A program made the position numbers and the translations under genes. Below, one piece after another: positions 2-1,412 of a stretch of DNA of 42,445 nucleotides (within the stretch, counting starts at the first letter, position 1; every line of letters begins with the position of its first letter). This DNA comes from a virus. A model generated the notes under the pieces. The model worked only from the letters and a program-made list of their open reading frames with translations. It did not search any database and was not told the origin of the DNA. Location of the stretch: the IMG/VR virus record IMGVR_UViG_3300047319_000093, positions 1-42,445 of that record; one strand, 5' to 3'.

Positions 2-616
2 AAGCCGGAGATCACGGTAACGCGCACGCGCCTGACACTGGACGACTACCGTCTGATCTACGAGCAGGCCACGAAGAGTCCGGCGACTCGCTGGATCGCC
101 AACGCCATGGAATTGGCTTTGGTGAGCGGGCAACGCCGGGAAGACATCGGTAAAATGCGCTTCGACGACGTCAAGGACGGTTTTCTGTTGGTCGAGCAGG
201 CCAAGGGCAAAGAGGGGAACCGGGCCAAGCTGAGGATTCCCGTCACCTTGCGGCTGGATGCTTTGGGCGTAAGCCTGGAGGAAGTCATCCGCCGTTGTCG
301 GGATAACGTGGTGAGCCAGTACATGATTCACCTGGTGCAGAAGACGAGCCTGGCATCGCCTGGCGACACGCCGAACCTGCAATACATCAGCGGCGCTTTC
401 GCGCGCATGCGCGACGCTGCTGAGATCAAAGTTGAGTCGGGCAGGACGCCACCCACGTTTCACGAGTTGCGATCCCTGGCCGCGCGACTCTACGCAGAAC
501 AGTATGGAGCCGAATTTGCACAAGCATTGCTTGGCCACAAGTCGGCGGAAATGACCGCGCTTTACCGTGATTCGCGCGGTCGGGAATGGACCGAAATCAA
601 ACTGGGGGCGGGGTAA
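2..616 (+). CDS. int: Tyrosine-recombinase integrase, C-terminal part (5' end outside window)
   Basis: The frame is open from the first bases of the window, so the N-terminus is missing. The visible 204 residues are a tyrosine recombinase catalytic domain. The first catalytic Arg lies in SGQRREDI, the H-x-x-R box is HELR, then comes LLGHK and the nucleophile Tyr in MTALY near the C-terminus. The family (lambda Int type) inserts and excises phage DNA at att sites. The stop is followed one base later by the ATG of the next gene, so the two are probably cotranscribed. The 3' end faces the late-gene end of the phage, as in lambda, where attP lies beyond the int 3' end. The fold is certain; the subfamily is less so. 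Confidence 0.95.
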   Translation, partial: KPEITVTRTRLTLDDYRLIYEQATKSPATRWIANAMELALVSGQRREDIGKMRFDDVKDGFLLVEQAKGKEGNRAKLRIPVTLRLDALGVSLEEVIRRCRDNVVSQYMIHLVQKTSLASPGDTPNLQYISGAFARMRDAAEIKVESGRTPPTFHELRSLAARLYAEQYGAEFAQALLGHKSAEMTALYRDSRGREWTEIKLGAG

Positions 617-617
617 A

Positions 618-1139
618 ATGACGAACAGGCCTGGTAGGCCGCGAAAGAGCGGACGGAAAAACTGGCCGCGAAATCTGTACAAAAATGCCAGCGGGACCTT
701 CTGGTTCCGCAATCCCAAGACGGGAGACGTGCTTTCGCTGGGCATGTCCGAATCTCAAGCGATGAATGCGGTATTTCGACTCAACCGTGCTATGGGGGAT
801 GACTCCGATCCCGTCAGTCTGCGCGACGAGCCGGAGGATGCGCATGGCTTGCTGTCAGCCGCGCAAATTTGCGAACGAGCGGAATCAATCTCGACTTCAT
901 GCGGGATCTATTTCTTGCTGTCGGCCGGGAAAATCGTATATGTCGGGCAATCCATTAACTGCGGTCGGCGCATCTTGGAGCACGTGATCGATCCGTCGAA
1001 AACGTTCGATGCTTACCATGTGATCGCGTGCGATCGGTCAGCGTTGAACGAGATGGAGGCGCGATATATAGCGAAGTTCTCGCCCGCACTGAACATCAAC
1101 ATGCCAAGGCGGGCGATGCTCCAATTAGACGCGAATTAG
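618..1139 (+). CDS. Arm-type DNA-binding domain fused to GIY-YIG nuclease domain
   Basis: 173 residues. The frame extends upstream, but ATG 618 lies one base after the integrase stop and gives a basic N-terminus (RPGRPRKSGRK). Residues about 16-58 match the layout of the lambda Int N-terminal arm-binding domain: NLY at 19-21, an aromatic strand ending F30-R31, P33, T35-G36 and L41-G42, then a helix. Residues about 94-161 are a GIY-YIG domain: GIY 96-98, YVG 108-110, R117/R118, H122 and a candidate catalytic Glu147 in NEMEARYI. GIY-YIG domains cut DNA with a metal ion. I infer a nuclease or recombination modulator that binds integrase arm-type sites. The role is unknown; it could be a homing-type nuclease. 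Confidence 0.75.
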   Translation: MTNRPGRPRKSGRKNWPRNLYKNASGTFWFRNPKTGDVLSLGMSESQAMNAVFRLNRAMGDDSDPVSLRDEPEDAHGLLSAAQICERAESISTSCGIYFLLSAGKIVYVGQSINCGRRILEHVIDPSKTFDAYHVIACDRSALNEMEARYIAKFSPALNINMPRRAMLQLDAN

Positions 1140-1412
1140 ATTTATTTTAGACGATCGCTTTTCCGGTGAATTCAAATTCCGCGCAAAGCCTTACCGGGCT
1201 TCGCTCCAGAGCTTTCCAGCCGTTGCCCAATTTTCGCGTTTCACGTCCGTCAAAAGCATATCGAGCTAAAAAGAACTTTCCGTAGTAAATTCAACCGCTT
1301 ACCCCCGTTTTAATGGGCGCTTTGAATGTACATCATTGGAGTATGTTGGCCCAATAAAATCAACAACGTACAAACGCGTTTTGGACGGTCGATTATTTGA
1401 AAGCTCTCGGTT
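1140..1412. other. AT-rich intergenic region, possible attP location
   Basis: This stretch of about 270 bases carries no convincing gene and is AT-rich compared with its surroundings. It lies downstream of the integrase 3' end, where lambda-type phages keep attP. AAATTC occurs twice (near 1170 and 1289). A weak hairpin, AAGCC/GGCTT near 1188-1203, has no T-tract, so it is not a good terminator. I could not define a core or arm sites by eye, so attP here is inference only. Confidence 0.3.

Follow-up and report, generated by a model that had tools for sequence, protein, structure and literature searches.

A lambda integrase-type arm-binding domain fused to a GIY-YIG nuclease is encoded between int and attP of a temperate phage

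The window analysed here, the 42,445 nucleotides of the IMG/VR virus record IMGVR_UViG_3300047319_000093, is an incomplete contig of a temperate phage. Directly behind the integrase gene int, the open reading frame (ORF) at positions 618-1139 encodes a chimeric protein, in which an arm-binding domain of the lambda integrase (Int) type is fused to a GIY-YIG nuclease domain with its active-site residues kept. The analysis thereby confirmed the architecture that a first-pass annotation had read from the bare sequence. The gene has been cleanly inserted between int and the phage attachment site (attP). It is considered evenly balanced whether the protein is an att-directed nuclease that acts on related phages, homing and interference being taken together. 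The gene and its domains are:

618..1139, plus strand: chimeric nuclease gene (Int-type arm-binding domain, residues 6-60; linker, 60-78; GIY-YIG domain, 79-163)
633..797, plus strand: arm-binding domain, residues 6-60 (PF09003, structural model, Foldseek matches to 2wcc/1kjk)
852..1106, plus strand: GIY-YIG catalytic domain, residues 79-163 (Y98, Y108, R118, H122, E147, N159)

The reading frame runs from an ATG at 618 to a TAG at 1137-1139, specifies 173 amino acids, and is separated by a single nucleotide from the TAA of int (614-616), so that its extent and its place next to int had been given correctly at the outset. The lambda Int N-domain family PF09003 was matched by residues 7-59 with an E-value of 3.4e-5 and 24.2 bits, which is above the curated Pfam cut-off of 22. 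The lambda Int N-domain structures 1kjk and 2wcc were matched with an E-value of 0.0016 (phmmer), and comparison with the N-termini of genuine prophage integrases from Burkholderiaceae genomes yielded E-values down to 4.6e-11. The signature NLY..N..G..WFRNP..G....LG is common to the nuclease and the PF09003 family, and all residues that had been cited for it (N19 L20 Y21, F30 R31, P33, T35 G36, L41 G42) are in place. An AlphaFold2 model with a mean pLDDT of 82.5 predicted strands at residues 20-22, 28-31 and 38-41 and a helix at 45-58, like lambda Int 1-64. With Foldseek, the modelled domain was aligned to 2wcc, the structure of lambda Int 1-64 on P′2 DNA, with an rmsd of 2.0 over 49 columns and 28% identity. 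In addition, the phage family phrog_15424 (128 amino acids, function unknown) matched positions 654-833 of the window, i.e., residues 13-72 around the arm domain, with an E-value of 9e-4; free-standing arm-domain proteins may thus exist in phages.

The C-terminal half scored just under the Pfam cut-off of PF01541 (19.7 versus 22.6 bits, E=0.0011), and a relative at locus L043 cleared this cut-off with 24.7 bits. In an alignment of 11 GIY-YIG sequences Y98, Y108, R118 and E147 were invariant, N159 was nearly so, and H122 is also retained in the nuclease. The modelled half matched the GIY-YIG domain of UvrC (1yd5/1yd6) with E-values of 6e-4 to 2e-3 and a probability of 1.00, and it could be superimposed on 1yd6_D with an rmsd of 2.0 over 78 columns. 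On the predicted model, residues 1-60 therefore did resemble the Int arm domain and the active site appeared unbroken, the two points on which the first-pass annotation had let its proposal stand or fall.

The surroundings of the gene include the following features:

2..616, plus strand: int, lambda-type tyrosine integrase, C-terminal 204 amino acids (PF00589, E=1.1e-20)
1123..1153, plus strand: tandem array of three candidate P′ arm-type sites with 11-bp spacing (AATTAGACG at 1123, AATTAGATT at 1134, TTTTAGACG at 1145)
1195..1255, no strand assigned: attP core region; 3′ end of a 4-oxalocrotonate-tautomerase-like gene, which lies on the minus strand (...LTDVKRENWATAGKLWSEAR*)
1379..1387, plus strand: extra candidate arm site of the GG type, TTTTGGACG, beyond the core; conserved in both L013 and L014

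The int gene is cut by the left edge of the window, so that the N-terminus of Int lies off the contig; a start of int was not seen at the right end of the window either. The remaining part is 97% and 91% identical, respectively, to the intact 374-residue integrases of the relatives L013 and L014, in which the gene order is xis-int and Int has an arm domain of its own. An alignment revealed that about 520 bp, including the fusion gene, are present in the window but not in either relative, and that the flanks are homologous on both sides. The gene is thus present in the window and absent from the corresponding empty sites of two close relatives, as is characteristic of homing endonuclease genes.

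In L013 and L014 a tandem array of TTTTGGACG-like sites with 11-bp spacing begins 1-2 nt past the int stop codon, and the same three-unit array directly follows int in most of the lambda-type integrases of Burkholderiaceae that were examined. In the window the last codons and the stop codon (1137-1139) of the nuclease gene fall within the array. The P′ arm of lambda has three adjacent sites, which are spaced one helical turn apart and lie close to the core. Because of this resemblance the units were taken as candidate arm-type sites. The attP core lies about 50 bp beyond the array: positions 1206-1252 are 81-89% identical to the end of the tautomerase-like gene as it occurs in numerous Burkholderiaceae genomes. 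The copy in the phage stays in frame through the stop codon. A tRNA attachment site was rejected, because no tRNA is present in the window and attB is the end of the tautomerase gene. No RNA family was found near attP of L013 and L014. The site of insertion makes the int-attP junction the presumed target of the nuclease, and an insertion flush against the putative target is what is expected of a homing-type gene.

A survey of about 30 integrases (the bases past the int stop at loci L076-L105, L013 and L014) revealed that the central dinucleotide of the array tracks one residue in a strand of the arm domain. Arm domains with W at this position were accompanied by GG at 29 of 42 sites, by GA at 6 and by AG at 1. 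For the T type, GA was present in 14 of 21 sites, and the Y type went together with AG at three scored sites (L084) and at most sites of L085 and L088, the arrays of which fell under the score limit of the simple site finder that was used. The sequences counted are related and do not represent independent events. The rule rests on Burkholderiaceae; an order-wide search yielded only two further Int arm domains. The pairing is a possible recognition code of integrase arm domains.

The arm domain of the nuclease is of the W type (GTFWFRNP), and the Int arm domain closest to it, that of L083, has a GG array. The observed co-variation predicts that the arm domain binds arm-type sites, and by the rule it should read GG arrays, unlike the array of the window itself, in which all three sites have AG, while the far-side site at 1379-1387 has GG as in the empty relatives. 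The AG array fits two readings: either it was altered so that the nuclease spares its carrier, or the off-contig N-terminus of Int is of the Y kind. It is not claimed as proof of self-sparing, because it is a single case and the N-terminus of the window Int is off the contig. The DNA of a further relative, L017, is 96% identical over the 415 bp that it shares with the window, and it encodes a W-type arm domain (GYYWFKNP), which likely pictures the missing start of int. Recent duplication within the phage itself, from the arm domain of its Int, was rejected as the source of the arm domain of the nuclease, because L083 is identical to the latter at 30 of 61 positions versus 23-24 of 61 for L013, L014 and L017. 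At another locus, L070 (G105:C4:187644-188721), an 84-residue ORF with an Int arm domain is followed by an Int match without one. This could reflect an integrase that was split or has decayed; alternatively, the ORF may encode an arm-domain protein in its own right.

The phage subfamily to which the GIY-YIG half belongs is modular, and further members of it are joined to other domains of integration modules. DUF4224 is fused to it at L014:3819-4292, L019:1438-1893, L043:1458-1934 and L044:4860-5384. These fusions are near int in L014 (two genes upstream of it), L019 and L043, and no int lies beside the fusion in L044. Proteins with DUF4224 are also present in the int gene clusters of the phages F10, where it is annotated as excisionase, and Marilyn. 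An AlpA-type N-terminus is fused to GIY-YIG at L028:5743-6348 beside a P4-type Int. At L027:5632-6288 an unclassified N-terminus of AlpA-like appearance is fused to GIY-YIG, and this gene is followed by an HTH_17 gene and then int. Of the seven viral records in which an integrase was detected, four (L014, L019, L026 and L027) have a GIY-YIG gene at most about 1 kb away from int, and the same distance holds for the fusions of L028 and L043. In further members the N-terminus is a coiled coil or of unknown kind, and int is not nearby. Most similar to the nuclease domain is L042/L132 (52-56%), which lacks an arm domain; its gene is far away from int, towards the opposite end of a Paraburkholderia prophage. 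No second fusion of an arm domain to GIY-YIG was found in 50,697 phage records, 72,556 plasmids and 399 Burkholderiaceae genomes, nor in the viral contigs, where the search was limited by pattern seeding. The adjacency of the subfamily to att is therefore recurrent, and the arm fusion has so far been found a single time. A general rule that the partner domain copies a neighbouring gene was discarded, as it was not seen outside the window (24 loci). At L019:2061-2519 an HNH_3 homing-type gene lies between the DUF4224/GIY-YIG gene and int, so that one integration module contains two nuclease genes.

If the protein is indeed an att-directed nuclease, the captured arm-binding domain would bring the GIY-YIG domain to the P′-arm repeats in attP of related phages. 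Owing to the 1-nt gap, the nuclease would probably be co-produced with Int from the int transcript. If a rival whose array is recognised shares the cell, the tandem sites would be bound and the DNA would be cut at or near attP. Such a cut would harm the integration of the rival and/or invite repair from the copy of the carrier, and the repair would move the gene into the int-attP junction, i.e., it would be a case of intronless homing. The carrier would be spared, as the central dinucleotide in each of its own three repeats is not that of the predicted target. The placement flush with the array, the near-identical phages that are empty, and the difference of the array at every unit are also consistent with the logic of homing endonucleases.

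Several observations weigh against such a role. As the N-terminus of the window Int is missing, the AG array might do no more than correspond to an AG-type Int, an objection that is tempered by the W-type arm domain of L017 and by the far-side site that still has GG. Conversely, if the window Int is of the W type, the altered P′ array should weaken its binding, a cost for which the proposed role would have to account. The arm domain of the nuclease is on a long branch, and its specificity may have been lost or changed. The pTM of the model is 0.51, and thus it is uncertain how the two domains are arranged relative to each other. Finally, the fusion was found once, and there is no second carrier in which array and nuclease could be compared.

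The first-pass annotation had stated that it knew of no described function for this pair of domains. Indeed, no paper on an integrase arm-binding domain joined to GIY-YIG was found in the literature searched, and mentions of GIY-YIG together with excisionase were, by title and abstract, genome reports. A close working precedent does exist, however: Odn (origin-directed nuclease) of the Vibrio phage ICP1 consists of a RepA DNA-binding domain captured from a satellite and a GIY-YIG domain (T5orf172), and it cuts the origin of the satellite, which is recognised by the RepA domain (PMC8263062). Odn needs the three iterons of this origin, and a change of the iterons enables escape (PMC8263062). Related cases occur in coliphages (PMC10448857). 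Like Odn, the window nuclease is a small chimaera of GIY-YIG and a reader captured from the machinery of another element, with a short series of repeats as predicted target, and its reader is a homologue of Int in the related phages that are presumed to be the targets. The differences are that Odn combines RepA_N with the iterons of a satellite replication origin, while by Pfam a RepA_N domain was not found in the window nuclease, which has PF09003 in that role and attP as predicted target. Moreover, its gene is part of the int-attP module in a temperate phage, and its cleavage activity is putative. By analogy, the window nuclease may work like Odn, yet it is not an Odn. The principle of a captured reader on GIY-YIG is thus already published.

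With free-standing GIY-YIG homing enzymes (Seg type, catalytic domain of I-TevI) the nuclease shares the active site, the intronless insertion by the presumed target, and the absence of the gene from close relatives. Orthodox enzymes of this kind have C-terminal NUMODs (PMC1564403), whereas the window nuclease has an N-terminal integrase domain; a NUMOD was not found among its Pfam matches, and just 14 residues follow N159. The lambda Int arm domain (PF09003; 1kjk, 2wcc) resembles that of the nuclease in fold, signature and the tandem arm-type sites nearby, but the nuclease does not have a core-binding or catalytic recombinase domain and is joined to GIY-YIG instead. DUF4224 and AlpA are likewise DNA-binding domains of integration modules that occur next to int in fusions with this GIY-YIG subfamily; when alone, they have no nuclease domain.

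Among the alternatives, cargo for superinfection exclusion or defence is regarded as unlikely; it would be expressed from the prophage and, without any homing, would cut phages or satellites with such arm sites as they enter. This role would agree with a cargo position adjacent to att, with the close relative that stands alone in the Paraburkholderia prophage, with the weak similarity of the GIY-YIG half to the candidate defence family PDC-S14, and with the shielding of its carrier from satellites by Odn. However, the gene is directly behind int, the transcript of which is usually off in a lysogen, any lysogenic promoter of the gene is hypothetical, and the PDC-S14 match spans the nuclease fold only.

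A regulator of excision or integration is considered distinctly improbable. The arm domain might compete with Int at the arm sites and so tune integration, or GIY-YIG might nick or resolve stuck attP intermediates, instead of cutting rivals. The gene is indeed 1 nt downstream of int, and competition for arm sites would be within reach of a lone arm domain. Branched DNA is acted on by GIY-YIG enzymes of the SLX1 type, which would suit the second variant. Yet the gene is absent from phages that are 91-97% identical in Int and is thus dispensable for recombination, active-site residues are retained that a mere competitor would not need, the own P′ array is unlike the predicted target, and the nearest folds are of the UvrC type. 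An ordinary selfish homing endonuclease, with the arm domain as a chance DNA anchor and the true target elsewhere, e.g., in int or the flank, is just as improbable, because several integration-module readers on one GIY-YIG subfamily beside int are more than would be expected of chance pick-up, although GIY-YIG domains are very mobile and have many partners (PMC1564403), most relatives have unrelated N-termini, and a homing-type HNH gene also adjoins int in L019.

Of the roles that the first-pass annotation had put forward for an att-arm reader with a nuclease, homing or action against competitors is hence favoured and regulation of excision less so, based on the empty-site relatives, the insertion flush against the array, the differing own array and the repeated fusions with integration-module domains. 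It is tempting to go one step further, although with less than even confidence, to an undescribed class of nucleases, for which phages would capture Int arm, DUF4224 and AlpA readers onto one GIY-YIG subfamily for use against the attP of rivals, with the central dinucleotide of the array separating self from non-self. If this is true, phages fight over integration itself, and the recombination module, which is usually viewed as housekeeping, becomes the address of a targeted nuclease, with the arm sites of attP as markers of self. The principle of Odn would then extend from satellite origins to prophage attachment sites, and the arm-site rule would make targets predictable from sequence.

Two further observations concern other genes. 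In the phages BL4 and Clover (L002 and L003; 3728-4474) a GIY-YIG relative with an unassigned N-terminus of about 160 residues directly follows the gene of the terminase small subunit. At 1899-2531 of the window, an ORF of 210 residues, which is kept in L013, resembles by eye the nucleotidyltransferase part of ATP-dependent DNA ligases.
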